This document shows, piece by piece, positions 3,987 to 63,400 of a stretch of DNA of 64,000 nucleotides. The notes beneath the pieces were generated by a model. The model saw only the letters and a program-made list of their open reading frames with translations. It had not been told where the DNA came from and did not search any database. The position numbers and the translations under genes are program-made. Within the stretch, counting starts at the first letter, position 1; each line of letters opens with the position of its first letter. Origin of the DNA: Spinellus fusiger. Taxonomy: Eukaryota > Mucoromycota > Mucoromycetes > Mucorales > Phycomycetaceae. The stretch is taken from the NCBI GenBank assembly GCA_025094145.1, contig JALLLS010000044.1, forward strand, positions 225,064-289,063, read 5' to 3'.

Positions 3987-5318
3987 ATGGACTCCAGTGC
4001 TGGTACACAAGCCCAGGACACTTACTCCTCCTCCTCCTCCTCTGCTGCTGCTGCCGCTGCTGCTGCTGCTCAAGAAGAGTGCAATATCTTATCTCCTACT
4101 CTTGCTGATATTCTCAGTGACGATCGAATCCTCAGGTTTTATCAATGTGTAAAAGATATCAAGACACAGAGGTCCCCTAAACAAACAGCTGCCATGTTTT
4201 TTGCTCTATGCCATGCTTTGGGAGATACCGTTTCTTTTCTCAAGGTCCCTAACATGGCCAAAATCATGTTTCGTCAAGAACAACAGATTTTTGCTGTGAA
4301 TGTGACGGGAACTCAACACGATACAGTCCAATTATTCCAGGCCAACCCTAGTGATTTACCCGCTTTGGATCCCCTCAAGATGGAAAACCCACCCATGTTG
4401 CATACTACTGGTGGAGTGGTGGATCAGAATCTGTTTTCTGCCCCTGGAGAGCCCACCCAACACTTGTTACAAGCTGCTCTGGCCTCAGTCACGACGCCTT
4501 CTGTTGTAGCAGGACAGAATCCTGAGCCTACATCCTTGAGGCGAAAGATGGACAAGGAAACACCCCAGAAAAGAGCCAAAAAAGCCAGTCCAAGAGACAA
4601 GGAGTATCCCGTAAGACGGAATGAATTAATCCAGGACCTGTTGAAGGTGTCTGAAGCCGATTTGATGCATCAGGCCAATATAGTGGACGACGATATTAAG
4701 CTTGTGATTCAGGGCCATGAACGCAGCACTAAATTTGGCCTACTCTCTCCCCTCCATCGATTTGCTACGTTTGCTAATCTACCTGCGCATTATGACTGTG
4801 ATTTTGCACCCAAGAATGCAGGTGTCTATTTTAACTTTGAATATTTTCAGCTGTACTTGGCCTACCGTGATCTTGAACTGGAACGACAGCAGCAGCAGCA
4901 GCAGCAACACCAACAACACATTGATACCAGTGATCATCGTCCTGTTTTGGTGCAGTGCAGAGCCGATATTGAGAAAGTATTGGTCAACACTAACTGGGAA
5001 GCCATCCGACGCCGCCTTACCATTGGCGAGCGTATCTGTCAAGTGTGTGGTGCATTTGGTCGTGGGTTTCTTCTTCTCAGTAAACAAGTATCTGGTCGCA
5101 AACTACTCCATAACTTTAATACGGGAGAGTGGAGCGAGTTTATGCGTGAATTCCAACATCCTGAAAGCCATGCATTGCTGCAGACCCTCCAAGCAAAGTA
5201 TTCACCCGAGAGATTTTATGGTACACGTCCTATTCAAGCCCTGGTGGAAGTGGATCATTCAATGACTTCTCATCCATCTACGCCCACCACCGAACCCTTG
5301 AATGAATCTCATTCGTAA
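3987..5318 (+). CDS. Unknown protein with poly-Ser/Ala and poly-Gln tracts
   Basis: A single-exon ORF encoding 443 residues from the ATG at 3987. An in-frame ATG at 3888 would add 33 residues, but it has a poor context (C at -3), whereas 3987 sits in an A-rich context. Residues 13-30 are a Ser then Ala homopolymer run. A basic segment around 185-205 (RRK, KRAKK) looks like a nuclear localisation signal. A poly-Gln/His tract of about ten residues lies near 295. The C-terminal third is globular and contains a CxxC-like pair (ICQVCG). I do not recognise the family. Codon usage and length argue for a real gene, and an AATAAA-like signal lies at about 5412. It converges with the P450 reductase gene, separated by 137 bp. 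Confidence 0.7.
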   Translation: MDSSAGTQAQDTYSSSSSSAAAAAAAAAQEECNILSPTLADILSDDRILRFYQCVKDIKTQRSPKQTAAMFFALCHALGDTVSFLKVPNMAKIMFRQEQQIFAVNVTGTQHDTVQLFQANPSDLPALDPLKMENPPMLHTTGGVVDQNLFSAPGEPTQHLLQAALASVTTPSVVAGQNPEPTSLRRKMDKETPQKRAKKASPRDKEYPVRRNELIQDLLKVSEADLMHQANIVDDDIKLVIQGHERSTKFGLLSPLHRFATFANLPAHYDCDFAPKNAGVYFNFEYFQLYLAYRDLELERQQQQQQQHQQHIDTSDHRPVLVQCRADIEKVLVNTNWEAIRRRLTIGERICQVCGAFGRGFLLLSKQVSGRKLLHNFNTGEWSEFMREFQHPESHALLQTLQAKYSPERFYGTRPIQALVEVDHSMTSHPSTPTTEPLNESHS

Positions 5319-5455
5319 GAAGAAGAGTACTACATTACTAATAGTAACAATAATGCTCTCTCTCTTTTCTTTTCTTTTCTTTCTCTCTTTTTTTTTGCTA
5401 TTATGTTTATATAATAAAATATTCGTCTAAATGTGCCATTCTATCTGTTTTTTTT

Positions 5456-7620
5456 CTAACTCCATACATCTTCCTGATAACGACCCGTATTTCGCATGTT
5501 CTTAATAAATTCATGTGCCCTGTCATCAGTCAATTGACCCACCCGAGTCGCTATAGCCACCAATGTCTGCTGAACATCCTTGGCCATGGTGCGTGCATCA
5601 CCACAGACATACAGATACGCACCCTTGTTCAACAACTGCCACACCTCCTCCTCTGCTTCTTGAAGACGGTGCTGAACATAGACCTTTTGTGCTGTAGTAC
5701 GTGAAAAGGCAGTAATAATACGAGACCCTTCACCTAAAGACTCGAACAATCCAGGCCACTCATTAGCATACAAAAAGTCATTTTCTGTGCGGGATCCAAA
5801 GAACAACAGGGTGGGACCCACGGGTGTTCCTTGTGCCTTTTGGTGGACTCTTTCTCTTACAAAGGCACGGAAGGGTGCCACGCCTGTACCAGGACCAATC
5901 ATGATCACAGGCAAGGAAGGAGACCGAGGCAGCTTGAAGGTGGATTTACGGACATGTACAGGTAAGCAGGGACCTTGTGCACTTTCAAAAGAGCCACGAG
6001 GACCTGCTGTGTCATAGGTAGGATGAGAAGCAGGAAGAGAGAGAGTGTGGATCTTGCTGTGTTTTTGTAATAAAAAGTGAGTAGCAACACCATAGACTGT
6101 TCTGTGAGGTGTGGGTGTGGGCTGGTAGGCCAGGGTCACTACAGTAGCTGAGATCACATCAGGACTCTCTTTGGAGGAGGAGGAAATGGAGTAGTAGCGA
6201 GGCTGGAGACGAGGAATGCTTTCAATGATCAAATCAAAGGGAACACTGGAAAGAACACCTGCACTTGACACAGCAACAGAGTCTGCTGCATACTGGATGG
6301 TCTGAGCCAAGTTGCGTACAGACTCAGAGACGTGGAGTCGGTAGGCGTCTTTGTCGGTGGCTAGTGTGCGAAGGGCTTCTCGGAGAGGTTCAGGCAAATA
6401 GTCTACAAGAGCTATAAGGGTCTGTCGGGACACAGGAGCACAGATATCAAGATAGTGACGGAACATAGCACGGTAGGTGGTAGGAACAGGGAAAGGATGC
6501 TTTTTAGAAGCAGTAATATCCATAGCTGTGATATTAACAGCACTCTCAAGAGATGCAATTCCCAATACTTGTGCCAAATGTTGGATTTCATTGTCATTGT
6601 TTGAAGGCCACAGGGCAAGATGATCGCCTGTTTGATAGGTGAGGTTGCACTGACTAATATCGAATTCAAGATGAAGACAGTGTCTGTCAGCCTCCTCAAA
6701 CACACCGCGAGAAGTGTAGGGAGCTAAGAATGGATTCTTGGCATTGTAGAGAGTGTTGTTCAAGGTCTCTCCCAATTCTCCCAAATAAACAGGGCTTTCT
6801 ACAGGCACCACAGTAAAGGTGGCCTTGCGTGGCTCGGTATTGATGACCTCTTCCACTCCCAATGCCTCACAGAACACAGGCCATACTTCCTCCTGCCATG
6901 ACAAAAAGTCCTCTTCCAAACAGGCATTGTCGTCTCCTTCTCCATAGGCCCCCAGCCGATGGGCCCCTAGAGCAGTAAGGCGCTGATTCACGATCCTTCC
7001 TACTTCATTGTACTTTTCATATGTTTTGTTGCCCAATCCAAAGATCATGTATCTCAGTTGGCTCAGGGGAGTAGGACCCTCCTCAGTAGAGAACATAGGC
7101 GACTCCTCCTTTATCAGGTCCCAGAACTCCACTGCACTGTCAGTAGGTTCGCCCTCTCCATAGGTAGCCAGCACAAACACAACCACCATGGAAGAAGGAA
7201 CAGTGTCCAGGTAAGTAAGATCATACATCTCGATGTCTGCTGTCATGCAGCTAACACCGTACTTTTTGGTACATTCTTTAGCGAGTCGTGAGGCGTAGTC
7301 TTCTGCTGTGCCTGTTTGTGAGCCATAAAAGAAGATGACTTGTCGGTTCTAGCGATACGAATTCTTCATTATTTCATTGCTCTTTTATTGGAGTCTATTC
7401 TTGTCGAGTACCAGGGACTTACTTCTTTCTGCATTATGTTGACAAAGTTACGCTCTTTTTTTGTGGTTGTAGGTTCAGAAGAGACAGGTGCAGAGGGAGG
7501 AGAGGGGTATAGTTTGGCTTTGATAGTGTTTCTAGTGAACCACGCCAGAGTGGCAAGACCAATAGCACCCACAGTGAGTATATCGGATGCGTCCAACATG
7601 GGTACAGACTCCTTTGCCAT
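5456..7620 (-). CDS. NADPH-cytochrome P450 reductase
   Basis: Two exons: 7620-7423 (66 codons, GTAAGT donor) and 7348-5456 (630 codons plus stop), separated by a 74-nt intron, giving 696 residues, the normal size for the family. It transfers electrons from NADPH through FAD and FMN to P450s at the endoplasmic reticulum. Visible features in order: an N-terminal membrane anchor (about residues 12-30); the FMN-binding loop GSQTGTAEDYA (about 75-85) and ATYGEGEPTD; the FAD motif RYYSISSSS; the NADPH-binding GPGTGVAPFRAF and CGDARTMAKDV; and the C-terminal DVWS, whose Trp stacks on the FAD in this family. All expected cofactor motifs are present. It is the likely redox partner of the P450 pair at 57-63 kb. 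Confidence 0.96.
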
Positions 7621-12411: not shown

Positions 12412-13758
12412 CAGTGTTACATCAAAAAACTAAAATATTTTTCATTTTCCGACTCTAATTTTGCTATAAAAAAAAAAGTTTTTTTTTACACATTCCTCAT
12501 TTCTTCTTTTTCCGCTATCATATTTATCATGTCTAACACCACCGAACAAACCACCAAGCCTCTTGGAAACAGAAAGAGAAATATTGACGACTTTACTCGT
12601 AAACTCATTGTACACGAGGCCACCGTAAATGGCACCAGACAGACAGACATTGTAGCTATGTTTGGTGTCAGTCAGCCCGCTGTCAGCCTCATCATGAAGA
12701 GGTACAAGGAAACTGGCTGTTTCAAGGCAGGCAAGAGCTCTGGACGCAGGTTTGTCTTGAAGGAGAGAGACGAGGTGGCAAGGGACCCTTTCCAGAGCAT
12801 GAAGGAGCTCCACCAGGGAATGGCCACCAAAGTGTCCATGAGCACTTTTGAAAGAATGATGAAGAAGATTGGCCTGTCTTCTTGCAGGGTGATTAGAAAG
12901 CCTGCTCTCACCAACAATCACAAGAAGCTGAGGCTTGCTTGGGCCAGAGCCCACCTTCACTGGACCGAGGAAGACTGGAGAACGGTCATCTGGTCCGATG
13001 AATCAAAGTTCCAGTTGATGAGCAACAACAACCGCAACAGGGTGGTCCGTGGGAAGAATGAGGGGCTTCTCCCAAAAGATTTGAAGCCAACGATGAAGTT
13101 TGGTGGTGGCAGTGTGATGGTCTGGGGTTCCTTTTCTGGTGAAAGTGTTGGTAGACTTGCTGTGGTGGAGGGATCCATCAATAGTGCCAAATACACCAGT
13201 ATTTTAGAAACGGCCTATTACCCCGAGCTGGCTCGTCTTAAGGCACTGAATCCAGTGGTAGGCTATGTTCTTCAAGAGGACAATGCTAGGTGCCATACTA
13301 GTAAGGAGACTAGGAAATGGAAGGATGAGTGGGGCATAGTCACTATGGAGGGGTGGCCCTCTCAAAGCCCTGACCTGGACCCAATTGAGCATCTTTGGGA
13401 GGAGCTCGACAGAGCAGTCAGAAAGAAGATGACCCCAAGGAGCACCCTCCAGGATCTGAAGGCTCTTCTGGTGCAAAAGTGGGAAAAAATACCCAAGACT
13501 GTCACCAACGCCCTCATTAACAGCATGCATCGGAGATGTAGGGCTGTTATTAAGGCCAAGGGTGGAAACACCAAATACTAAGGGTTTCCACCTAATAAAT
13601 CTGTATATATTATCTTGATGACCTTCTTTATACTTTATCCAATTTTCAAGTCTCTACTGTGTGTTTAATGTGTGTTTTTATGACAAAGAATGAGTATTTC
13701 CATAAACAAGAATCATATCGGAATGTAAAAAATATTTTAGTTTTTTGATGTGACACTG
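12412..13758 (+). mobile_element. Complete Tc1/mariner transposon with intact transposase
   Basis: The ends are matching terminal inverted repeats of about 31 bp (12412-12442 and 13728-13758, starting CAGTGTYACATCAAAAAAC) that differ at one or two positions. Both ends are flanked by TA (12410-12411 and 13759-13760), the canonical Tc1/mariner duplication. Total length is 1347 bp, with one uninterrupted transposase gene inside. This is the only Tc1 copy in the window with both an open transposase and clean ends, so it may be recently active. Decayed relatives lie at 18970-19740 and 55300-55780. Confidence 0.95.
12529..13581 (+). CDS. Tc1/mariner transposase
   Basis: 350 residues, the usual length. 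The N-terminal bipartite helix-turn-helix (paired-like) domain covers about residues 10-120, and residues 20-55 include VHEATVNGTRQTDIV. The catalytic RNase H-like domain carries all three acidic residues: Asp in IWSDESKFQ, Asp in LQEDNARCHTS, and Glu in DPIEHLW. By my count 35 residues separate the last two, so it is DD35E rather than the classical DD34E. A GGGSVMVWG stretch lies between the first two acidic residues, as in the family. It cuts and pastes its own element at TA sites. The ATG is 117 bp inside the left end. No stops or frameshifts. Confidence 0.95.
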   Translation: MSNTTEQTTKPLGNRKRNIDDFTRKLIVHEATVNGTRQTDIVAMFGVSQPAVSLIMKRYKETGCFKAGKSSGRRFVLKERDEVARDPFQSMKELHQGMATKVSMSTFERMMKKIGLSSCRVIRKPALTNNHKKLRLAWARAHLHWTEEDWRTVIWSDESKFQLMSNNNRNRVVRGKNEGLLPKDLKPTMKFGGGSVMVWGSFSGESVGRLAVVEGSINSAKYTSILETAYYPELARLKALNPVVGYVLQEDNARCHTSKETRKWKDEWGIVTMEGWPSQSPDLDPIEHLWEELDRAVRKKMTPRSTLQDLKALLVQKWEKIPKTVTNALINSMHRRCRAVIKAKGGNTKY

Positions 13759-14035: not shown

Positions 14036-14980
14036 ATGTCCGAGGTGGAAAAGGCCGACACCCACGCCCAACAAATGCTGCAGATGATGGCGGCAATCCA
14101 AAAACAGATGGAGATCTTTGGACTCCGTATCCAGGAATTGGAGGCCCAATTGAAGGCCAAGGATGCAATGATTGCATCCCTCCAGGCTCAGGCCACTACC
14201 AGCACCACCAACACCACCACCACTGCCACCCCTGCCACCCCTGCCAAGCAGGACAACTCGACTGCTGCTTCAAAGCATGCCCCAACCTCCACACCCACAC
14301 CCACACCCACCACCTACGCCAGCATGGCAAAGAAGAACCCCCAGGCCAAGAAGCCTACAAAGGCCAAAGCAGTGCTTAAGGCACAAGCAGTACGTGCCTT
14401 GCAGGAGCCCACTGGACCCTCAGTGTACGAATTCGTATACGTCCCTTGCCGCCGATACCTTAAGTACGGCCAGGTCCGCAAGATGTTGGGATCGTTGAAG
14501 ATCCAACAGTCACGGATCATTGACATCCACTTCCCGGCAAGGGGAACAGTTGCGCTGCTGGTCCACAGCAGCTACAAGAAGGAACTCGAGGAGCACCTCG
14601 AGAAGCTTAAGATCAGTCCAGTGAAGGACTTCAACCCTGTGTCCGCTGCAGTCATTGCAGACCCAAAGCTCCAAGGGGAAACCAACAGTACCAAGGCTGC
14701 AAAGGCCCAGGAACTCTTTGACCAGAGAGTGTCAAACACCTGTCTTCGTTCCCCCACCCACTTAGGGTACAGCATTGCTCGCCACTTTGGCTCTGGTAAT
14801 GCCACTCCCCGCCTCTCTGCCACTGCCTTTGAGAAGCTCTTGGCGGATCTCAAGGCCAAGACCCCAGTTGCCAGCCGCCCCGCCACCCTTGAAGAAGAGG
14901 CCATCCAGGCATTTGGATCAGGCTCAGCTATGGAAGAAGATGAGGGAGACGCCCAAAACATCCACCGAGAAGAATTATGA
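14036..14980 (+). CDS. LINE ORF1 (gag-like) protein
   Basis: 314 residues from the first ATG. The N terminus (about 1-55) is a heptad-rich helix with Gln/Met/Leu spacing typical of the trimeric coiled coil of LINE ORF1 proteins. It is followed by a long Thr/Ala/Pro low-complexity linker (about 57-110), a Lys-rich basic patch, and a globular C-terminal part that may be an RNA-binding fold. I see no CCHC zinc knuckle. The same frame is open and protein-like upstream to 13790 with no ATG, so a non-AUG start, or a start lost to mutation, is possible. The stop overlaps the ORF2 start as ATGA at 14977-14980. Confidence 0.8.
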   Translation: MSEVEKADTHAQQMLQMMAAIQKQMEIFGLRIQELEAQLKAKDAMIASLQAQATTSTTNTTTTATPATPAKQDNSTAASKHAPTSTPTPTPTTYASMAKKNPQAKKPTKAKAVLKAQAVRALQEPTGPSVYEFVYVPCRRYLKYGQVRKMLGSLKIQQSRIIDIHFPARGTVALLVHSSYKKELEEHLEKLKISPVKDFNPVSAAVIADPKLQGETNSTKAAKAQELFDQRVSNTCLRSPTHLGYSIARHFGSGNATPRLSATAFEKLLADLKAKTPVASRPATLEEEAIQAFGSGSAMEEDEGDAQNIHREEL

Positions 14981-15900
14981 ATAGACTGAAGATTGGTCTA
15001 TTGAATGCTTGTGGAATCAGGCCCAAACTGGTGAACGTTCTGAATGTGTGTGTGCAGAATGATATTGATATACTTTTAGTGACAGAGACTTTCCTGACCA
15101 AAGACATGCAAATGTTGAGGTGCCCCTGGATACAAATACACAACTATGCTACAGCCCATGGTGATGCTGGACGAGGTTTTGATGGAGTTTCGTTCTTTAT
15201 TCGTCCTGACTTTCCTTACCATGTACATTCCTTACCAATTACTAATCCTTTTGTGGTCTCCTGTAGGATTGGCCCATATACACTCCATAGTCTGTACCTA
15301 CCTCCGAGGCTGTCGTCTAGTGAGGCTGCGGAAAGGTTGAATTCACTACCCATAGACGACTTCACACTCGTCCTTGGTGACCTGAATACACGTTTAGGCC
15401 GCCTGACTGGAGATCATGGCATAAACGACAGACATGTGGGATTTGAAGACTGGATCTGCCGTCAGGATCTAACCTTGTGGAACTCAGAGTTGGCATTTGG
15501 CTTGCCTACATATGAGCGAATTCTAGCAGATGGTCGTCGGTTTGCTAGCATTATTGACCTGTTCCTGTCAAGAAGCTACAACTTCTCCGAAGTGTGCTTG
15601 CACATTAGGGACGATCTGACGTTAGGTTCAGACCACCACTTGTGTGAGCTGTCCTTTCAGCCGGTGCTCATGCCACCGCTCATGACAGAAACAGCTGTCC
15701 GTCGCCTCTGGAGACTGCAACGTTTAAACAAACAAACAGTCTGTGACCAGTACAAGCGATGTTTTGCAGAGAACACAGGTGAACTGCAAAGAGAGATCCA
15801 AAAAATATTGGAAGACAAAACCCCGTTGTGCTCTGTTAAGATGGAGGACTTTGCTGAGAGACTCAATGAGTCAATCTACAAGGCCCTGGATGATACGTAG
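14977..15900 (+). CDS. LINE ORF2, endonuclease part
   Basis: 307 residues with the apurinic/apyrimidinic endonuclease fold that nicks target DNA. Visible catalytic motifs are: Asn near the start (LNACG), Glu in LLVTETFL, the LGDLNTR motif, Asp in IIDLFLS, and the terminal SDHH. The start codon overlaps the ORF1 stop (ATGA), suggesting termination-reinitiation. The frame ends at a TAG (15898-15900) only four bases after the RT frame opens (15894), so the two parts belong to one ORF2 broken by a single-base indel. Confidence 0.88.
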   Translation: MNRLKIGLLNACGIRPKLVNVLNVCVQNDIDILLVTETFLTKDMQMLRCPWIQIHNYATAHGDAGRGFDGVSFFIRPDFPYHVHSLPITNPFVVSCRIGPYTLHSLYLPPRLSSSEAAERLNSLPIDDFTLVLGDLNTRLGRLTGDHGINDRHVGFEDWICRQDLTLWNSELAFGLPTYERILADGRRFASIIDLFLSRSYNFSEVCLHIRDDLTLGSDHHLCELSFQPVLMPPLMTETAVRRLWRLQRLNKQTVCDQYKRCFAENTGELQREIQKILEDKTPLCSVKMEDFAERLNESIYKALDDT

Positions 15901-18569
15901 GGCGCGCACAATCCCATCCAAAAGCTTGGAAAAGCTACTGGAATGCTGATCTACAACAGTTAGCTGACCGTCGTCAAGAACTTTATCGTTTTAGACGACG
16001 GGTAGGCAATGATATTGAACGCATTGAAGCCCACCGCTTGTATGAGGAAGCGTGTTTAGCTTTGAAAAAGGCTATAAGGCAAGCACAACGACAAACCTGG
16101 CATGTATTTTGTGATAAAGTCCGTAAGGGCTTAACAGAGATGACAAGTGCTGTGAAAGGAATGAGGCTGCGGAGACGTTCGCCAATTTCCCTGTCATCTC
16201 CAGAGGGCCCTCGGCATGCTGCCAATCGCATGATTGACCACCTAGAGAGAGTGTTTGGCGGATCTACGGAAAGACAGGAGCGTCAGGAGTTTACTCTCCA
16301 AGACAATCCAGTCCCATGGGACGTAGACTTTATTCACTCTGCTATTCGAAAGATGCCAAATCGAAAAGCACCAGGCATTGATCATATTAGAGCAGAAATG
16401 CTCAAACCCCTAGTTCGAGTGCTAGTGCCTCTGTTACATCAGATCTTCACATTGTGTTGGAGATGGTCGTGGACGCCTGTGGCCTGGAGAACAGCACAGG
16501 TGGTACCTATTTACAAAAACAAAGGAGAGCAGGATGACCCTAGTAACTATCGGCCTATTAGCTTGACATCGGTGTTTCGTAAGCTCTTAGAAAGATGTAT
16601 AGCTGGGGAGCTCCTTTCGACCATGCCTGCATTGGACATGGCTCAAGGTGGATTTCGCGCTCGTCGTGGAACTCTAGACCAGGCCCTCTGTCTCCACGAA
16701 CTTATGGGGTTGTACGCTGCCCAAGGATCAGGAGAGCAAGATCCAAAACCTCCAGTCGTCGTCTTCCTAGATATTAAAGCTGCATATGATAGTGTGGAAC
16801 GCTCTGTCATATGGGAGTCGCTGATGCCCTTCGTGTCTCAGCCGTTGCTCTTGCTACTACAGAATTTGTTTGATGACATTGTGGTGAATGTGATTCTGAA
16901 AAATGTAGCATCCCGGGACATTGCACCTAAACGAGGAGTCTTACAGGGTAGTATTCTTTCTCCATTTCTTTATTCTATTTTCATTGATACTCTTCCACGT
17001 TTCTTGAGGTTTGCTTCGGTATCCCCAATACTGGTTGGTATGCACCCACCTACCATGGGACGGTCCATTAATCTCTGTGCTCGAAATCCTTTCTCTTTTG
17101 CTTCCCCACAGGCAACTGTTCACGCATTGCTTGACGAGTTACAGAATTCCCTTCACAATCCTTTTCCTACTTCTACAGTTTCGGATGACTCTTCTGAGTT
17201 GTCAGATTCCTCTTACAGTCCGTCTCATGTCACTGTTACTTGGGCTCCTGTGAATTGTTTGTTGTATGCTGATGATGTGGCTCTTATGGGCTGCCCAGAA
17301 GATATACATCGAATGCTGGCACTTGCCGAAATTCACTCGACCCTCCTTGGTTACAAATGGAGTCCCTCCAAATGTGAAGTACTCAATGCCCCGGCCAATG
17401 TGCCGTTTTACCTCTATGGCAACGAGCTTCCAACCTGTGATACTTTCAAGTACCTTGGTATCCCCTTTTCACGTCAAGGTATTAACCAAGACGCACTTTT
17501 CTCACACTCACAAGTCAAGGCAATTGCAGTAATGCAAAAGCTGAGAGGAATGGGTGTAAACATGTATGGCTTTGGGATTACAGCAGCCCTAAGAGCGTAT
17601 ACTGTTTTTGTTCGGCCTATCCTTGAGTATGGGTTGGCTATTTGTAATGTCAATAGACTAGGCATCCGCCCGCTACAAATCTGTCAGTCTGCTTGTCTGA
17701 GACTTTGTCTTGCTAGATCTGCTACTGCTAGGTTTGGAACGATCCAGGTTGCCCAATTAGCTGCCCTCCCTAACATATACTCTCGTTTTCTTTATCTGCA
17801 AGCCAAATTTGTTGAGCGCGCAGCTACCCTTCCTGAAGACACCCTCCTCTGGTGCCTTGTCCCGCAGCTTGAAGCACCCCAGAGTAAAGCCAGATGGATT
17901 AAGCTACGTGGCAATGTACTCTGGCAAAATGCTCAAAGAATAGGACGGGCTCACAACCCTCCTAAATATCCATTAAAAGTAGCTTATCTTGAACGTCTTC
18001 AAAGTGAAATTACTAGTCTAGTACGTGGCAAGAATCCGCTGGTGACGGTAGCCCGTGGACTATGTAGACCTGTTTGGGATCCAATTCTTCTACTACCGTG
18101 CACGCGCAAAGAAAGACATCGTCTACTAAAATGGAGGATTGCTTGGTTACCACCAACACCTTCAGTTCCTTGCCAATGTGGCCACCCATCTGCCAATCGG
18201 GACCACTTTCTCACTTGCACATTCGTTGACCATGAACGCTCCACGTTCTTGTTCTTCCTAGTTCCTGCACCACCACAAGACATTCATCCAATTGACTATT
18301 GTCTAAATCTTCTGCCGCGCACGGTTAAGTCTTTTGTTAAATGGCGAGACCTTTGGCCCAGTTTGTTAATACTGCTGCAAGCCATTGATCGAGCCACGTC
18401 TACTCGAGACTTTAAGGTAGAGCCATCAGCTGGTAGCCTGCTCATTGAGGCTGCTGATGGGTGTGTTGAGCGGGAACGCCAACGCCGCCATAGAGTGCAA
18501 AGACTCCTGCAGCAACAGACGCTGTATCCTCACTTCTCCTCCGATCTCTCCTCTACCACCCATTCTTAA
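15894..18569 (+). CDS. LINE ORF2, reverse transcriptase part
   Basis: The frame is open from 15894 (no ATG at its start) to 18569, about 890 residues. RT motifs in order: KAPGIDHIRAEML (motif 1), YRPISLTSVFRKL, the catalytic Asp of FLDIKAAYDSV, RGVLQGSILSPFLYSIF, and YADD at 17265-17276. A C-terminal Cys/His cluster (CQCGHPSANRDHFLTC, C-x-C-x7-H-x4-C) resembles the one found after the RT in many LINEs. No RNase H domain is evident. The product would be translated only as a fusion with the endonuclease, so as sequenced this copy is probably not autonomous unless the indel is an error. Confidence 0.88.
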   Translation, partial: YVGRAQSHPKAWKSYWNADLQQLADRRQELYRFRRRVGNDIERIEAHRLYEEACLALKKAIRQAQRQTWHVFCDKVRKGLTEMTSAVKGMRLRRRSPISLSSPEGPRHAANRMIDHLERVFGGSTERQERQEFTLQDNPVPWDVDFIHSAIRKMPNRKAPGIDHIRAEMLKPLVRVLVPLLHQIFTLCWRWSWTPVAWRTAQVVPIYKNKGEQDDPSNYRPISLTSVFRKLLERCIAGELLSTMPALDMAQGGFRARRGTLDQALCLHELMGLYAAQGSGEQDPKPPVVVFLDIKAAYDSVERSVIWESLMPFVSQPLLLLLQNLFDDIVVNVILKNVASRDIAPKRGVLQGSILSPFLYSIFIDTLPRFLRFASVSPILVGMHPPTMGRSINLCARNPFSFASPQATVHALLDELQNSLHNPFPTSTVSDDSSELSDSSYSPSHVTVTWAPVNCLLYADDVALMGCPEDIHRMLALAEIHSTLLGYKWSPSKCEVLNAPANVPFYLYGNELPTCDTFKYLGIPFSRQGINQDALFSHSQVKAIAVMQKLRGMGVNMYGFGITAALRAYTVFVRPILEYGLAICNVNRLGIRPLQICQSACLRLCLARSATARFGTIQVAQLAALPNIYSRFLYLQAKFVERAATLPEDTLLWCLVPQLEAPQSKARWIKLRGNVLWQNAQRIGRAHNPPKYPLKVAYLERLQSEITSLVRGKNPLVTVARGLCRPVWDPILLLPCTRKERHRLLKWRIAWLPPTPSVPCQCGHPSANRDHFLTCTFVDHERSTFLFFLVPAPPQDIHPIDYCLNLLPRTVKSFVKWRDLWPSLLILLQAIDRATSTRDFKVEPSAGSLLIEAADGCVERERQRRHRVQRLLQQQTLYPHFSSDLSSTTHS

Positions 18570-25029: not shown

Positions 25030-25925
25030 CTATGATCTCATATGTTTCACGTTAGCTGTAGTTATATGCCCCTTTGAGTCGTTTACTCGTTGTATTTTGT
25101 ATGAAGTTCCTTCGTTGTTTTTCCCTAGGATTTTCCATGGTCCGGTCCAGTTTTCTGTCTCGTAGGTTTTGGGTTCAATGATTAGCTCTGGTTCCAACGG
25201 TAAGGTTGCCTTTCTGCCAAACATTATTTCAAATGGTGATAAACCTGTGGATACCTGTTGTGCTGTGTTATAGGCAAAAGTTACAAAAGGTAAATATGTG
25301 TCCCATTCTTTTTTGTCCTTTTGGTCCACATAGGCTGCCAAACTGGTCTTGATCGTATGATTTAGCCTTTCCACCAGGCCATCGGTCTGTGTGTGTTCTA
25401 CTGAAGTTAGTGAGCGTTTGATCCCTAATCGTTTGCATATGCTGGTCATAGCTTCTGATATGAAATTTGCACCATTGTCTGTGATCAGTCTGGTTGGCAC
25501 GCCAAATTTCAGGACTACTTCATACAGAAGTACCCTTGCTATCTGTTCTGTGGAAAACGAAGGTAGTGCTACTGTGATGGCCCATTTGGTTAAGTACTCG
25601 CAAATTACCAACACGTATCGATTTCCCTTATTGCTCATGGGTAGTTCTGCTATGTCTGCAGCCCATATATCGCCTGTATATTTTGGTAGGATTGGTTTCA
25701 TAGGTGTCTCTGTTGAGTCAGTTCGCACCTTATACCTTTGACATTGTGGACATCCTTTGATGTATGTCTTTGTGTCTTCCAGTAAGCTTGGCCACCAGCC
25801 ACTTCTTTAATCTTCTCAATTGTTTTCTGTACTCCAACGTGTCTTCCTGTTAGTCCGTTATGGTATTGTTTAAGTAATGTTTCCACCATGTTCCTGGGTA
25901 GTACTGGTACCAACTTTGTTCCCAA
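25030..25925 (-). pseudogene. Ty3-type integrase fragment
   Basis: Two overlapping minus-strand frames cover the integrase. The 25925-25698 piece has the His-containing part of the H2C2 zinc-binding motif (HNGLTGRHVG), with its Cys pair in the next frame (CPQCQRYK region), so there is a frameshift near 25780. The 25728-25030 piece has the catalytic core with Asp in WAADIAELP, Asp in RLITDNGANF and Glu in DGLVERLNHT, the D,D35E triad. A C-terminal GPWKILGKN segment resembles the GPY/F module. Reverse transcriptase, protease and gag are absent. Truncated near 25945. Confidence 0.88.
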
Positions 25926-42057: not shown

Positions 42058-43368
42058 TCAGGGGAAGAGCTTGAATTTCTTCATCATCTTATAGAAGGTG
42101 GTCTTACAAACTCGATTAATCATCCTCATACGAAACCCTTCTGCTATCCGTAGTGGGTTGTGATCCACCTTATGAATTAACTCCAACTCGTCTTCTTCAT
42201 TCATCATCGACTCTTTCTTTATATCTTCATTCATCATCGACTCTTTCTTTATGTCTTCTTCATTCATCATCGACTCCCTTTCTGTGTTTTCTTCAATAAT
42301 TATCAACTCCCTTTCTGTATCTTCTTCGATCATCATTGACTCTCTTTCTGTGTTTTCATCGATCATCATTGACTCTCTTTCCATGTCCACTGGCCCCACG
42401 GAGAACATATTTTCTCTGAACTTCTTCAAGACCACTGAAACAGTTGATGGACAAGTACCAATCATAGCAGCAATCTCTTTTTGCTTAAGACCATTGACCT
42501 TGTACTCATGCAGAATGGTCTTGCGCATGTTGTCGTCCACCGGTTTCCCTTTTTTACGAGGCTTATAGGTACCTCCATTCCCTGCAGAATATTCACTCAG
42601 GACTCTGGAAACAGTTTCTTTACTAATACCAATCTTGGTGGCAATCTCCTTTTGCTTATGGCTATTCACTTTGTACTCATGGATAGTATCCTTGCGTATT
42701 GTGTCATTCACTAGTTTCTTTTCTCCAACAGGATCTGCGCTTTCACTACTGATGAGAGCATATTTCTTCAAGATATTGGAAACAGTCGGTTGGTTAGTGC
42801 CCACCATGGCAGCTATTTTTGCTTGAGTGAGGCCATTGACCTTGCTCTCATGTATAATAGTGTTGCACATCTTCTCATCGACGGGTTTCCATCTGTTAAG
42901 AGGTTTACGGATCTTCTTGTCTGTGATTGTGTTTTCCTTCAAGACTTTCCTAACAGTCCATTGACTCGTACCCACAATGGCAGCAATCTGCACATTGGTG
43001 AGGCCATTGGCATTGCTCTCATGGAGGATGATCTTGCGCATGTCCTCATCAATAGTTTTCTTTCTTTCATCACTGGTGTGATTCATTTCAGTAATGGAGG
43101 GAAGTTTGGTCAAGGATCTCGAAACAGTCGCTGTGCTAATGCCAATCTTGGCAGCAATCTCTTTTATGGTGAGACCATTGGCATCACGCTCATATAGAAT
43201 GGCGTTACGCCTGCTTTCATTGTCGCTATTTCTTTTTCTTCCGAGATGTAAATAGTGGTTTTCAATATTAAGGGGTTTTCTGACAGTGTTTGTTATACTG
43301 GCAGTGGCTGTTGGATTACTTTTTGTTTTTTTCTTGGTGCTGGGTTTTTTCTTGGTGATGACAGACAT
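42058..43368 (-). CDS. Protein with five tandem transposase-type HTH domains
   Basis: Uninterrupted 436-residue ORF from the ATG at 43368. After a Lys/Thr/Ser-rich head there are five copies of a helix-turn-helix at about residues 50-90, 107-147, 163-203, 220-260 and 277-317, a period of about 57 residues. The consensus core is HE-KVNGLTQKEIAAMIGT followed by TVS-VLKKY. This is the same first HTH found once in the Tc1 transposase at 12529. An acidic repeat of 10-11 residues (ERESMMIEED-like) fills 328-393. The C terminus (403-436) ends CKTTFYKMMKKFKLF, resembling the second HTH helix of the same transposases (STFERMMKKIGL). The protein ends exactly where the catalytic domain would begin, so it cannot transpose. 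Likely a domesticated multivalent DNA-binding protein. Function unknown. Confidence 0.85.
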   Translation of the reverse strand: MSVITKKKPSTKKKTKSNPTATASITNTVRKPLNIENHYLHLGRKRNSDNESRRNAILYERDANGLTIKEIAAKIGISTATVSRSLTKLPSITEMNHTSDERKKTIDEDMRKIILHESNANGLTNVQIAAIVGTSQWTVRKVLKENTITDKKIRKPLNRWKPVDEKMCNTIIHESKVNGLTQAKIAAMVGTNQPTVSNILKKYALISSESADPVGEKKLVNDTIRKDTIHEYKVNSHKQKEIATKIGISKETVSRVLSEYSAGNGGTYKPRKKGKPVDDNMRKTILHEYKVNGLKQKEIAAMIGTCPSTVSVVLKKFRENMFSVGPVDMERESMMIDENTERESMMIEEDTERELIIIEENTERESMMNEEDIKKESMMNEDIKKESMMNEEDELELIHKVDHNPLRIAEGFRMRMINRVCKTTFYKMMKKFKLFP

Positions 43369-45281
43369 GAGGTAATAAAAGTAATAAAAGCAATAAATAA
43401 ACAAAAGAGATTATGGCTTGGACAAAAGCTTATTCGGAAAATGAAGGTATTACTGGGGTTTACTTATGACAATGTGTTTATGATTTTCACTACCAGGAGG
43501 TCATTTTTCAATACATTCAAATAAAGTAGTCAGTTCATAAAAAATATCAACAAAAAACAAGTCCAGGTATATGACCTTATGTAGAGAAATATCAAATAGA
43601 TATATTTCATATTGCCTGATGAATGGACTTATTTTATTCATTACTAAATGTCTTTTATTCCACCTATCTTACTGTTTTAGTGGCTTTGATATGGAGTTAT
43701 CGAGTCAAACACTATACCATATTAGAGAAACAAAGCAAGATAATCTACAGACACATTGGTATTGTTCAGAAATGACCAGAAACAAGAGGTGTGTTTGGTA
43801 ATAAAAAGAGTTGTATCTCTCAAAGTTATATACTACAACAATGACAACTACTTATATACTTCTCAGACCATATTAGATTAGTATAATTTATACAATAGCA
43901 ATGTCTCTTGGAATGTGTGGGTTAAATTCTTCAACAATCTCAACCCTATGAGGGATTCATATAGGGTGGATTAAAATAAAAAAATAAAAAAGCCACACTT
44001 GATAGACTCCGTAGTTATCTCTACTTTTTGATAACCACACTGAATCTGAAAATACAAATAGCTTCGATGGGTTTAACTGAATAACAGAGTGAAATAAATG
44101 TTTTATCAAGTGTTAAGAAATAAATAGATCATTACTGCGGCATTATACACTTGGCAGAGTGAGATACTGTTGGGAAATAGGGACAGTGATAGTCCCGGTT
44201 CCATTGAGGACTCACTCTAGTAGACGCTACGTACAACTCTATTAGATAGAGAAATTTACCCCCAAGACATAGGGTAAGTAGGTACATAAGATAGCAACTA
44301 AACTAGACAATTCTATCCTTGACAAATATGCATAGTGTTAAGTACCCATTTTACCTCTGGATGATTAACAATACAAGAATATAGACACTGTTGGGAATAA
44401 ACGAGTCTTGACTCACAGACTAATAAGGAGTCTTATAATGAACCCTCCTATGTGTTATTTTTATTAATGCCAAAAGAAATATAAACAGTCAATAGGCAAC
44501 TAAGCTCTTATTATTATTATTATTATTAAATGAATTGAGCTTATTTTATATTCATATTTTACTAGTTATTTGCTGCTATTGACTATGTGTAGTCTTTAGT
44601 GTAAGCCTGACGTAGATGATAGCCTTTTCTTTTGAACTGTTGTGAACTACGTGTGATAACTATTTACCTTGGGAAAACAGCTTTATGACATACTACCTAG
44701 CCTATAATTTAAGTAAAAGATATTTTATCTAAATAACACTTTATCTTTTTATTCCATTATCATACCAACCACAGATACTATTTACAGTGTAAAGTATATC
44801 CTTTATTCTATTATCATTAACACTTGTTCATATCTATTTATAAATATAAATGCTGATAAAGACATAGAATTGTTCTCTCTGCATCTCAATTGTGAAAAAG
44901 TTCTGTTCTTATCATAATCTCATAGTATTATTTATACGTCAAGTATATCAACATTAAGCACCAAAGATTTGAAATATAAACACACACACACATACAATAT
45001 AAAGCATAGAATATAAAATAGAGAGCATAAAAAGTCTCTCAGCCTTCCTGTAAATAGGGTAGTGGATTCAAATAGCTAAAACTCCAATCCACCTTCCCCT
45101 TGTTTCATGACTTAATTATAATCCACTGATATATTTATATTTATATTTATATTTAAATAAAAAAAATTCATTTATCATTATATATTTGATTCTTATTAGA
45201 AGAATATACACACTAATAATCTATCAATACCATATAGACTTCATAAAGGAGAAGGAAAACAAGGCGGGATAAACACTATTA
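43369..45281. other. Long intergenic stretch, no gene recognised
   Basis: AT-rich sequence with an (ATT)n run near 44510. Two TGTTGGGAA starts at 44168 and 44393 are reminiscent of LTR ends, but no matching CA ends or duplications were found. Confidence 0.4.
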
Positions 45282-55864: not shown

Positions 55865-58800
55865 TATGACAAACAAGGAGTATCTCCCGATATAAGAAGT
55901 CTATCGGAATTCTATATAAAAAAAACCTTAAGAGGTTTAGTCTTGCTGTATTTCTTGGCTTAACTGAAGACACGATTACATTTCTAATGCTAAAATATTG
56001 TAATAAACCTTGATGATAATCTGGTTCATCATCGGATTAATAAACGAGTATTCAAATAAAGTCTATGATTCTTTTTCTATCTATATAGAAAAAGAAGAAA
56101 AAAAGAAAAAAAGAAAAAAAAAGGCCATGCATCACTAGATTTTCTTCTATCAAAAATAAGTTACTAGTTAAAAATAAATTTATAGCTATATAATTCAATA
56201 TTAAAGTTTGAATATTCATTCTATATTTATATAAAGGAGTATTAATGCTTTAAAATTGATTAAAGCCTCAAACATTTGTATAGAGATATAAAGATATTGA
56301 GGAGCATTACCAGTGTATATGTAAACTAACATAGTCGTGCAGACATTGTTTCCTGACCATACATGCAAAAAAAAAAGGCTTGATACTGTCTGTGCACTTC
56401 TATTTTTCGATATACAGGCCTTGGAAATCTTAAAGATATACATTTACTTCTATCGTCGCACAACATTCTTAAAGCTATTTATTCTTATAAATAATATTTA
56501 TCTAAAGTACAGTCTATTCTATTCAAAGATTGATAAATACTAATACAGGGACAGATTATTATAGTGTGTATAAAAATAAAAATGAACTATTATGTTTTTT
56601 GAAGGCTCTCCTGATTTTTCAAATAGATATCCGTAACTATGCCATGAGATACTTAAATGTTCTTAATATATCAACTAAATACTCACATTCAAAGCTGTAG
56701 TGTTGAAATACACAATCAAGAAGAGGCTTAAGGTGACATAATTTCAAGAGCACAAACACTTAATTTTTTTGACAATATAATATACAGAATAACAAGAAAG
56801 GGTGCCAATTTTTATTGAATAAATGTGAAGGGGTGTTTATGTATTATTATTATTTTAAAAATTAAGAATATTTGGTTTAATGAAAGTTTAGGCAATAGTT
56901 TCAATGTTTGTTGTTGCTAGAAACATGTTCTCTAAAATAAACATAGCTACTTTGAAATACTACATGATTATGCATAAGGATTCTCAGTTTTAAATATGAT
57001 ATAATAGATGTAATATATATTTGCATTTGCATTTGTGCGTGTGTGTGTGTGTGTGTTTGTGTTTTTTTTTCTTTTTAAAAAAAGAGATAATAATAATAGT
57101 ATAAAAGTGTACAAAAAAAAAGAACATAGTTTTTTATTAATTTACTTTGATATTCTCTTTACTTTCAATGGATTCAACTCATTTATTTTTTCATAAAAAT
57201 CAATCTTATATGATTGATGTTCTGAAAGCTTACTTTCTTCAAAGTACTAGTGCTGTTGTTGTTGGTATAGCTATGTATGGACTTTATTCTGTCTTCAAAG
57301 ACAAAAAACATGATGGGTTTGAAAAAATACCCATGCCCAAAGGCAAATACCCCTATGTTGGTAAGAACTTAGTTAAGGTTAATAAGATACTGATAATTGT
57401 ATTTTTCAGGCCATTTACCGTACCTTACTGAAAATTCATTTTTAAAGATATATGAGTGGCATAAAGACCTAGGTAAGTACCACTGTAACTAGCTAGCTAT
57501 TACTTTTTGATTAACGCTTTTGCAGGCCCCATTATTCAGGTTAAGATGGGTGTACAAGACACTGTCTTTATTTCAGATCCTTCTATTGCCCATAAAGTAT
57601 TCAACACCAATGGCGGTGTTACTACTATGCGACCAACTAATAATTTCACTAGTGAATATTATAGTATAAACGGAAGGTAAAAAAAATACATGTATTGAGA
57701 ATGCAATGACTTACCTGATACATTATGAACACTTAGAGGAATGATATTTGCTAAAGATAAAAAAAAACTCAAAGAATCAAGACTTGCTGGTAAGACAACA
57801 AAACAAAATAAAAATAGGCATATAAATAGATGAATCTACAAAAGACAGTACTAATATGTCATTGAAGCAAATATGTTCCTAGTACCAAAAGTGTTGGATC
57901 AGATGGGTGATATAATTACTATTGAGACAAGCTATCTCGTAGATCGGCTGATCAGAAATGGAAATACTGATGAAGGAGTGAATCCTTTCAATGATCTTAC
58001 ATTTAGATCTCTTAATGTAATGACAAAAGTCTGTCTGGGGATTCGTCTTGAATCAACTGACGACCCAGTCTTTATGAATATTCTTGAAATTATTCACTTG
58101 TCATTCATGTACTCGGGATTGGATGAAACCATCGATGCATATATTCCAGCTCTCTGGTTTATAGGCTATTTTCAGAAGAAAGATACACAGAAGCGTGAAT
58201 TTATTGCTAATTTACGTGACCCTACTATGAAGAAATTGATAGCCCAGTCTATTGAAGAAGATAATGACTGTCTTGTCAAGAGAATGAGAAAATCAGACAA
58301 TAATAACATGTATGATGAAGAAGATATTATGGTACTTGTCTGTAAGTCGGGTTTAGCAATCTTATGTAGCCTAGAAAGAAACTCACCCCTCCTTTTTGTT
58401 CAATTCAAGGTGACTTGCTTGTTGCTGGAACAGATACTGTTACTTTGTCAATCTCGTGGGCCTTTGTTGCTTTGTCTCGGTATCCTGAAGTTCAACAAAA
58501 GATATGTGCAGAGATAGATGCTTTTATTACTAAGCATAAAAAGCTACCTACTTTCGCAGACCGTGAGGCTTTTCCTTACACAATTTCTGTTCAACGAGAA
58601 ATTATGCGTTTTTATCCACTTACGCCTTATGGAAATCCTCATGTTGCTGAACAGGATTGTAAATATAATTTTAGTTTCATTACACAGAGTAAAGCTAATC
58701 AATGCTCATAGTCACGGTGAATAACTACAGGATTAAAAAAGGAACAACTTTAGTCAGTGATATGTATAGCATGCACAGAAACCCTGATGTCTATTCTGAT

Positions 58801-60408: not shown

Positions 60409-63400
60409 TAGGAACAAGAGAATATGTATAATGTCTATAGATCAAAATCTTGCCACTCTAGAAGATTGGTACTCATAATTTTCTCTTTAAAGCACTACAA
60501 ATCCCAAGTAAAAGACCAGTATGGATATACGTTTATTCACTGAAACATTACTACAAAAATAATAATAATGAAACGGAAAATCTTGTATAGAATGAATAGA
60601 CTTTTTAAATAAGTCTATCAGGTCTCTCAACAAATCGTACTTTGTAAGGCTTAGGAATTATAGCTATCCCACCATCAATAAAACCTTCAATATCACCGTA
60701 TACAGGGTCTCCATTTGAATCAAGTGCTGGCTCAACAGTACTGCGTGCCCAAACATTGATGTATGTCTGAAATATTTCCATCTCAGCCTATTGAAAAGCA
60801 ATGCAAATGCTTTGATTAGTGTACTGAAGCTATGTGTAGACTAAAAGCTTCTCAATTAACTTACTAGATAGATTCCAGGACAAATACGTCTAAATACAAA
60901 CATAGAATAGTATGTAAATTAGTCAGAAGCAAGTGTAGTTGTCTATTCAACTATTTACCTTCCCCATCCAAAATTAAACTGATCTCTGTCTTTTGTATTT
61001 CCATTGGCAGATGCATGAAATGTAGACTTGTTGTTTATAAAGCGCTCGGGAATGAATCTGTCTGGATCAGAATAGACATCAGGGTTTCTGTGCATGCTAT
61101 ACATATCACTGACTAAAGTTGTTCCTTTTTTAATCCTGTAGTTATTCACCGTGACTATGAGCATTGATTAGCTTTACTCTGTGTAATGAAACTAAAATTA
61201 TATTTACAATCCTGTTCAGCAACATGAGGATTTCCATAAGGCGTAAGTGGATAAAAACGCATAATTTCTCGTTGAACAGAAATTGTGTAAGGAAAAGCCT
61301 CACGGTCTGCGAAAGTAGGTAGCTTTTTATGCTTAGTAATAAAAGCATCTATCTCTGCACATATCTTTTGTTGAACTTCAGGATACCGAGACAAAGCAAC
61401 AAAGGCCCACGAGATTGACAAAGTAACAGTATCTGTTCCAGCAACAAGCAAGTCACCTTGAATTGAACAAAAAGGAGGGGTGAGTTTCTTTCTAGGCTAC
61501 ATAAGATTGCTAAACCCGACTTACAGACAAGTACCATAATATCTTCTTCATCATACATGTTATTATTGTCTGATTTTCTCATTCTCTTGACAAGACAGTC
61601 ATTATCTTCTTCAATAGACTGGGCTATCAATTTCTTCATAGTAGGGTCACGTAAATTAGCAATAAATTCACGCTTCTGTGTATCTTTCTTCTGAAAATAG
61701 CCTATAAACCAGAGAGCTGGAATATATGCATCGATGGTTTCATCCAATCCCGAGTACATGAATGACAAGTGAATAATTTCAAGAATATTCATAAAGACTG
61801 GGTCGTCAGTTGATTCAAGACGAATCCCCAGACAGACTTTTGTCATTACATTAAGAGATCTAAATGTAAGATCATTGAAAGGATTCACTCCTTCATCAGT
61901 ATTTCCATTTCTGATCAGCCGATCTACGAGATAGCTTGTCTCAATAGTAATTATATCACCCATCTGATCCAACACTTTTGGTACTAGGAACATATTTGCT
62001 TCAATGACATATTAGTACTGTCTTTTGTAGATTCATCTATTTATATGCCTATTTTTATTTTGTTTTGTTGTCTTACCAGCAAGTCTTGATTCTTTGAGTT
62101 TTTTTTTATCTTTAGCAAATATCATTCCTCTAAGTGTTCATAATGTATCAGGTAAGTCATTGCATTCTCAATACATGTATTTTTTTTACCTTCCGTTTAT
62201 ACTATAATATTCACTAGTGAAATTATTAGTTGGTCGCATAGTAGTAACACCGCCATTGGTGTTGAATACTTTATGGGCAATAGAAGGATCTGAAATAAAG
62301 ACAGTGTCTTGTACACCCATCTTAACCTGAATAATGGGGCCTGCAAAAGCGTTAATCAAAAAGTAATAGCTAGCTAGTTACAGTGGTACTTACCTAGGTC
62401 TTTATGCCACTCATATATCTTTAAAAATGAATTTTCAGTAAGGTACGGTAAATGGCCTGAAAAATACAATTATCAGTATCTTATTAACCTTAACTAAGTT
62501 CTTACCAACATAGGGGTATTTGCCTTTGGGCATGGGTATTTTTTCAAACCCATCATGTTTTTTGTCTTTGAAGACAGAATAAAGTCCATACATAGCTATA
62601 CCAACAACAACAGCACTAGTACTTTGAAGAAAGTAAGCTTTCAGAACATCAATCATATAAGATTGATTTTTATGAAAAAATAAATGAGTTGAATCCATTG
62701 AAAGTAAAGAGAATATCAAAGTAAATTAATAAAAAACTATGTTCTTTTTTTTTGTACACTTTTATACTATTATTATTATCTCTTTTTTTAAAAAGAAAAA
62801 AAAACACAAACACACACACACACACACGCACAAATGCAAATGCAAATATATATTACATCTATTATATCATATTTAAAACTGAGAATCCTTATGCATAATC
62901 ATGTAGTATTTCAAAGTAGCTATGTTTATTTTAGAGAACATGTTTCTAGCAACAACAAACATTGAAACTATTGCCTAAACTTTCATTAAACCAAATATTC
63001 TTAATTTTTAAAATAATAATAATACATAAACACCCCTTCACATTTATTCAATAAAAATTGGCACCCTTTCTTGTTATTCTGTATATTATATTGTCAAAAA
63101 AATTAAGTGTTTGTGCTCTTGAAATTATGTCACCTTAAGCCTCTTCTTGATTGTGTATTTCAACACTACAGCTTTGAATGTGAGTATTTAGTTGATATAT
63201 TAAGAACATTTAAGTATCTCATGGCATAGTTACGGATATCTATTTGAAAAATCAGGAGAGCCTTCAAAAAACATAATAGTTCATTTTTATTTTTATACAC
63301 ACTATAATAATCTGTCCCTGTATTAGTATTTATCAATCTTTGAATAGAATAGACTGTACTTTAGATAAATATTATTTATAAGAATAAATAGCTTTAAGAA

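Follow-up and report, generated by a model that had tools for sequence, protein, structure and literature searches.

What kind of gene carries several copies of a transposase-type helix-turn-helix (HTH) domain in tandem and no nuclease domain: debris of a transposon, a part of one, or a host gene made from one? The question is raised by a locus in the Spinellus fusiger window studied here (the whole stretch of DNA analysed, 64 kb long), where a single open frame of 436 aa runs on the minus strand from an ATG at 43368 to a stop codon at 42058-42060 (Table 1). The preliminary description of this DNA had read in it an uninterrupted ORF with five HTH units at a period of about 57 residues, followed by an acidic repeat of 10-11 residues, and both readings hold: the units occupy residues 33-89, 90-146, 147-203, 204-260 and 261-317, which is an exact period of 57 aa, the Pfam profile HTH_23 matches the protein in five stretches (E 1.6e-25), and the acidic repeat was recovered with the length and copy number given in the table.

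Table 1. Positions within the window of the tandem-HTH gene, its parts and the Tc1-type transposase
Feature	Position	Strand	Remark
Intact Tc1-type transposase (single HTH1, HTH2, DDE_3)	12526..13581	+	source type of the units
Tandem-HTH gene, 436 aa	42058..43368	-	one open frame
N-terminal basic tail, probably disordered (residues 1-32)	43273..43368	-	pLDDT about 36-42
HTH unit 1	43102..43272	-	contacts (columns 47, 48, 51, 52) T A S R
HTH unit 2	42931..43101	-	contacts (columns 47, 48, 51, 52) Q W R K
HTH unit 3	42760..42930	-	contacts (columns 47, 48, 51, 52) Q P S N
HTH unit 4	42589..42759	-	contacts (columns 47, 48, 51, 52) K E S R
HTH unit 5, last-unit type, LKKF end	42418..42588	-	contacts (columns 47, 48, 51, 52) P S S V
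Acidic 11-aa repeat, 33 nt, 5.9 copies	42190..42381	-	15-base overlap with C-terminal piece
C-terminal 48-residue piece, homologous to Tc1 HTH2	42061..42204	-	stop where DDE would start

In an AlphaFold2 model built from the single sequence with no alignment (mean pLDDT 60.6), the protein forms five three-helix units; units 2, 3 and 5 reach pLDDT values of about 77-80, unit 1 lies at about 60-74 and unit 4 at about 36-59. The acidic repeat is modelled as one long helix, and helix 3 of the last unit begins at column 47 of the unit. A Foldseek search with this model gave weak matches, none of which reached E 0.001; the best 50 include a tandem-HTH CRISPR-repeat binder, Pax6, SETMAR, Tc3 and Mos1, all of them weak.

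Origin from a Tc1-type transposase

The preliminary description had also seen in the units a likeness to the first HTH of the Tc1 transposase of the same window, and in the C-terminal piece a likeness to its second HTH, ending before the DDE domain. Profile comparisons bear out both. A profile of 44 family units matched HTH1 of the window's Tc1 with a probability of 98.4 (E 5.2e-15, 40% identity). The C-terminal piece of the window gene taken alone was not recognized by Pfam; ten aligned tails from different genes of the family matched the Tc1 HTH2 with a probability of 97.2 (E 3.2e-11), and they end just before the DDE domain, nine at the same alignment column and the tenth five residues later. 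This common end point suggests one ancestral truncation. DDE_3 was not found among the best 25 of the 69 Pfam families that match the window protein, whose frame ends after the HTH2-like piece; since the DDE domain is absent, the protein is not a transposase. A tree was built from 193 array units together with 12 of 13 Tc1 HTH1s, on 43-residue sequences and hence with limited resolution; in it all array units share a single clade (support 0.894). Given this separation of units from Tc1 HTH1s, a single domestication event behind all array genes is likely, judged from sequence.

Several known proteins invite comparison. The array proteins resemble the Tc1/mariner DNA-binding domain (HTH1 plus HTH2, as in Tc3, Mos1, SETMAR and PAX) in their homology to both HTHs of the window's Tc1; the normal arrangement is bipartite with one HTH1, whereas in the arrays HTH1 is repeated 2-10 times and the DDE domain is absent. 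The third match in the Foldseek list (E 6.7e-3, with the query model at a mean pLDDT of 60.6) was PDB 2lvs, which we take to be Cbp1 of Sulfolobus, the archaeal CRISPR-repeat-binding protein. This protein has three tandem HTH units and binds a DNA repeat; it shares with the arrays the use of several tandem HTHs, is archaeal and limited to three units, and its structural match to the model is weak. Drosophila Pipsqueak contains four tandem motifs, and we know of no large Pipsqueak repertoire with hypervariable recognition helices. Pipsqueak proteins (HTH_psq) are described, in the part of the source available, as HTH transcription factors derived from a transposase, pogo (PMC10027918). The arrays likewise contain a transposase-derived HTH, from a different transposase lineage, and the HTH_psq profile lies outside the best 25 of the 69 Pfam families matching the window protein. 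Members of the fission-yeast Cbp1 family have two HTHs and keep a degenerate DDE domain without long arrays, in contrast to the arrays described here, which are without DDE. The same family is presented, in the portion of the report at hand, as CENP-B-like domesticated transposases with N-terminal tandem HTH domains, of which S. pombe has three and S. osmophilus six domesticated copies (PMC10085805).

Array genes across the genome

The tandem amplification of a Tc1 HTH1 in a frame that is open and without nuclease, as originally proposed, is supported; to speak of one intact gene falls short, as at least 49 genes share the architecture. When the genome to which the window belongs (38.08 Mb in 197 contigs) was searched, at least 141 rows matched with 96 of 469 candidates scored, and a second query gave at least 100 rows with 95 of 385 candidates scored. 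Rows of the first query were merged by eye into about 80 places, from the higher-scoring of which 48 loci (numbered with the prefix L) were taken; about 30 places lie outside this set, including the well-scoring C182:14536-15174. The 48 loci carry 49 array genes of 2-10 units each, with adjacent units spaced by 57 aa in 149 of 158 cases. Two C-terminal types recur, an HTH2-like piece as in the window gene and an acidic tail found in many genes of subfamily A, many of which are devoid of the HTH2-like tail.

A first alternative to be weighed is that this is a relaxed, largely neutral expansion in which dead transposase fragments duplicate without function while their surface residues drift. Some array copies are indeed broken (L037, L042, L052, L054, L068 and L071), and among the open frames three have no ATG ahead of the first unit (L034, L053, L055) and one starts at a contig end (L072). 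Against neutral expansion, 43 of the 49 array genes are open through the array, whereas stops interrupt 104 of 118 Tc1 rows genome-wide, some rows being fragments, and only 14 are free of them (Fisher p 3e-21, with the two sets counted differently). As an observation on the Tc1 copies themselves, the six interrupted rows at least 89% identical to the window copy all contain TAG stops only, a feature that might point to a bias in how mutations arose.

Arrays also differ in their number of units. One unit present in L044 is missing from L030; the two loci are on separate contigs, of which one is just 10 kb long, and could be two haplotypes. One unit present in L046 is missing from L059 on the same contig, and in L036 a two-unit block is repeated. 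The plasticity of mouse zinc-finger genes, as far as it is covered by the available part of one article, offers a counterpart of this gain and loss (PMC5363842).

Outside this genome, protein searches gave one match (P0002), or two when an alignment was used, with an uncertain coverage of eukaryotes that makes this result no evidence of absence, and in a viral scan none of 19 stretches was confirmed. P0002 (644 aa) is primase-like by eye, with about three HTHs at its end. Residues 99-320 of the protein encoded by the window gene weakly match a homing endonuclease of the Burkholderia phages BcepSauron and BcepSaruman (E 1e-7, 24.8% identity), which is possibly another tandem-HTH DNA binder and probably convergent in its HTHs. 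In the literature searched, whose scope lay outside preprints and most subscription papers, a family of this kind was not described.

Variation at the DNA-contact residues

From 214 units extracted, 204 full units were retained (197 of them distinct by DNA), the other ten having gaps or belonging to three frames that were off register or Tc1. Columns 35-55 of the unit align with the HTH of CAP (HMMER). In CAP the base-contacting residues are R180, E181 and R185, which correspond in the HMMER register to columns 47, 48 and 52; columns 47, 48 and 51 are taken, after alignment by hand, as the counterparts of the Tc3 contact residues. The contact set first chosen (columns 45-48, 51 and 52) was picked after variation had been seen and was used for pN/pS; in later tests it was replaced by the CAP-derived triple (entropy and codon-position tests) and the Tc3 triple (entropy).

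Among the 9,880 triples of columns 18-57 in the 197 distinct units, the CAP triple ranked second in mean entropy (first within subfamily A, tenth outside it). The Tc3 triple ranked third in all units, fourth in subfamily A and first in the rest. Little variation was found in the helix-3 core (columns 49, 50, 53 and 54). As many as 134 different four-residue contact sets occur among the 204 units, and no contact string is shared by any two of the 48 array ORFs in which two full units or more are present. The preliminary description had envisaged a multivalent binder of transposon ends or a host regulator; this diversity makes a single target shared by all arrays, such as one Tc1 end, unlikely.

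Divergence was measured at the second codon position, where a change always alters the amino acid. In the CAP triple this position differs in 0.60 of comparisons, as against 0.29 for fourfold-degenerate sites of columns 35-57 outside the contacts, a ratio of 2.04 (gene-bootstrap interval 1.80-2.33), whereas in the helix-3 core the corresponding ratio is 0.18 (0.07 vs 0.39). The excess is maintained when each unit is used once in disjoint pairs (contacts 140/294 vs fourfold 87/440, p 1.5e-15) and when only pairs with a likeness of 96% or more over columns 1-34 are taken (43/102 vs 20/179, p 4.3e-9).

The neutral expansion introduced above accords with some of the remaining measurements. Contacts are surface residues and are loose in Tc1 too: at equal number, contact entropy is 1.12 in 13 Tc1 HTH1s vs 2.30 in the arrays, and relative to background it is 1.8 times vs 2.2 times, a small difference. 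Nei-Gojobori pN/pS for the wider contact set was below 1 in all five sets tried, with values of 0.80 (bootstrap interval 0.66-1.03), 0.82 (0.72-0.96) and 0.86 (0.77-0.98) in subfamily A, 0.76 (0.53-1.13; 58 pairs) in non-A units at 80% or more, and 0.83 (0.77-0.90) in all units at 65-80%. The helix core gave 0.23-0.27 in subfamily A, well under the contacts, and 0.76 in the 58 non-A pairs, where contacts are not distinct. We infer that contact codons hit more than once push up the synonymous count there, and gene conversion among units may distort divergence measures. Drift alone is insufficient because contact divergence exceeds the fourfold rate, and the constrained helix-3 core also speaks against it; a neutral origin of the whole pattern is regarded as very improbable.

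The preferred reading, a family diversifying at its DNA contacts, recalls two known systems. In TAL effectors, modules of fixed length carry variable residues that set the base read; fixed-length variable modules are common to both, and the fold is different. Mammals employ zinc-finger arrays against transposons. KRAB zinc-finger proteins of tetrapods constitute, according to one study, a large family of modular DNA-binding arrays that is young and lineage-specific, in whose modules a few DNA-contacting residues vary under positive selection while modules are duplicated and lost, and whose gene clusters are enriched in certain retroelements (PMC5363842). The family described here is alike in being a large family of modular arrays with variable contacts and modules that are duplicated and lost, and unlike in that its module is a 57-aa Tc1 HTH rather than a C2H2 finger and that no KRAB-like domain was seen. 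Diversification of DNA contacts as in KRAB zinc-finger proteins is found in the arrays, with the pN/pS below 1 and the Tc1 yardstick counting against it, and the array family appears to work like zinc-finger proteins, though it contains no zinc-finger protein itself.

Flanking elements and putative targets of the arrays

The 64-kb window carries remains of LINE, Tc1 and retrotransposon elements. LINE-type frames lie at 14944-18569, with a reverse transcriptase confirmed at 15894-18566, and a fragment of a retrotransposon integrase at 25030-25806. Segments 57855-58517 (+) and 61349-62011 (-) have identical 220-aa translations, an inverted duplication of what is by eye a broken cytochrome P450; a match to a P450 reductase was also obtained, as was a weak one to SUR7/PalI, below Pfam's cut-off, and both are consistent with a fungal genome, short of proof.

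It could be argued that the arrays are cargo of such elements, spreading as or inside inverted-repeat transposons and serving the element rather than the host, perhaps as binders of its ends. A repeat about 110 bp long that has a TA-CAGT-like end, with 40 of its 114 candidate places in the genome scored, is situated immediately upstream of many genes of subfamily A (L033, L037, L052, L057, L062, L065 and L068-L071), with an inverted copy downstream at L033, L037, L057, L065, L070 and L071, and transposon-type frames were seen by eye beside the array genes of L006, L015, L016 and L030. Read from the letters, however, the TA-CAGT end faces the array gene, which places the gene outside that element and suggests, on our reading, that neighbouring elements were duplicated jointly with array genes; homology boundaries, moreover, vary between pairs of loci, as in segmental duplication. 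Inverted repeats flank 7 of the 48 loci by self-comparison (L037, L040, L043, L062, L065, L070 and L071), three of which belong to the 20 loci of 5-9 kb, and two further pairs (L033 and L057) were found only with the 110-bp repeat as query; 28 loci have flanks of 0-1.5 kb, so that more distant repeats would be missed there. The window gene has no flanking inverted repeats beyond short AT-rich arms. Part of the spread may have been transposon-like, some copies being flanked by inverted repeats; that the arrays as a whole are transposon cargo is considered improbable.

At L040, inverted arms of 1,875 bp (177-2051 and 4100-5974; 99.9% identical) surround a four-unit array gene and represent either a recent palindrome or an assembly artefact. 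Upstream of the window gene, the stretch from -322 to -271 is 81-83% alike in L036, L038, L042 and L043, and was examined as a candidate conserved promoter element. The 17-mer at its edge fits the pattern GATAMCTCMATATCAAA, present in the window at 43685-43701 upstream of the array gene, whose exact matches in the genome number 333 (173 on the forward and 160 on the reverse strand; 0 for the reversed control), so that the stretch is in part a dispersed repeat and no promoter is claimed; the whole 110-base upstream stretch of the window gene matched only itself.

Based on the evidence presented, we consider it probable that the arrays are modular DNA-binding proteins of a domesticated family that is diversifying, organized like KRAB zinc-finger proteins with another module. 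That the poly-HTH family is domesticated and diversifying is well supported, as far as sequences can tell, by its anatomy and its divergence within one genome, and sequence-specific DNA binding is predicted from homology. A Tc1-type transposase lost its DDE domain and retained the bipartite DNA-binding part, as the homology of both pieces shows; HTH1 was then duplicated in tandem at a fixed period of 57 aa, and about fifty copies of the gene arose, with 2-10 units each, in which the HTH scaffold is kept, base-facing residues diverge beyond their fourfold-degenerate neighbours and whole units are gained or lost between close copies within the one genome. An array protein may be a multivalent, sequence-specific DNA binder with a target set by unit order, and the repertoire may evolve in a birth-and-death manner in response to targets that change. 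Transposon ends would be the likeliest of these targets, and repression, which is a guess, might be exerted by occupancy or via the acidic, disordered tails.

A more specific proposal is put forward tentatively and with some doubt, namely that the poly-HTH repertoire is a functional counterpart of the KRAB system, in which arrays recombined from modules whose recognition helices are hypervariable would track and silence the transposons of the genome, possibly with a residue-to-base code at columns 47, 48, 51 and 52. The same anatomy would serve a diversifying DNA-binding family with other ends, such as self recognition during mating or fusion, or gene regulation of the ordinary kind, the target alone being different. 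Nothing in the data ties the arrays to transposon targets, which favours such a purpose; the transposase origin and the nearby transposon remains make transposon targets somewhat likelier, and other ends are viewed as rather unlikely.

To our knowledge, nature offers few DNA-reading repertoires whose modules are repeated and vary one by one (C2H2 zinc fingers and TAL repeats). An HTH-based repertoire, if true, would add a further kind of module, and the about 200 natural units in one genome would then be material from which a code could be learnt. It would show that a transposase domain can become a large diversifying family, and it makes testable outside animals whether transposon-rich genomes evolve arrays of DNA binders against transposons.
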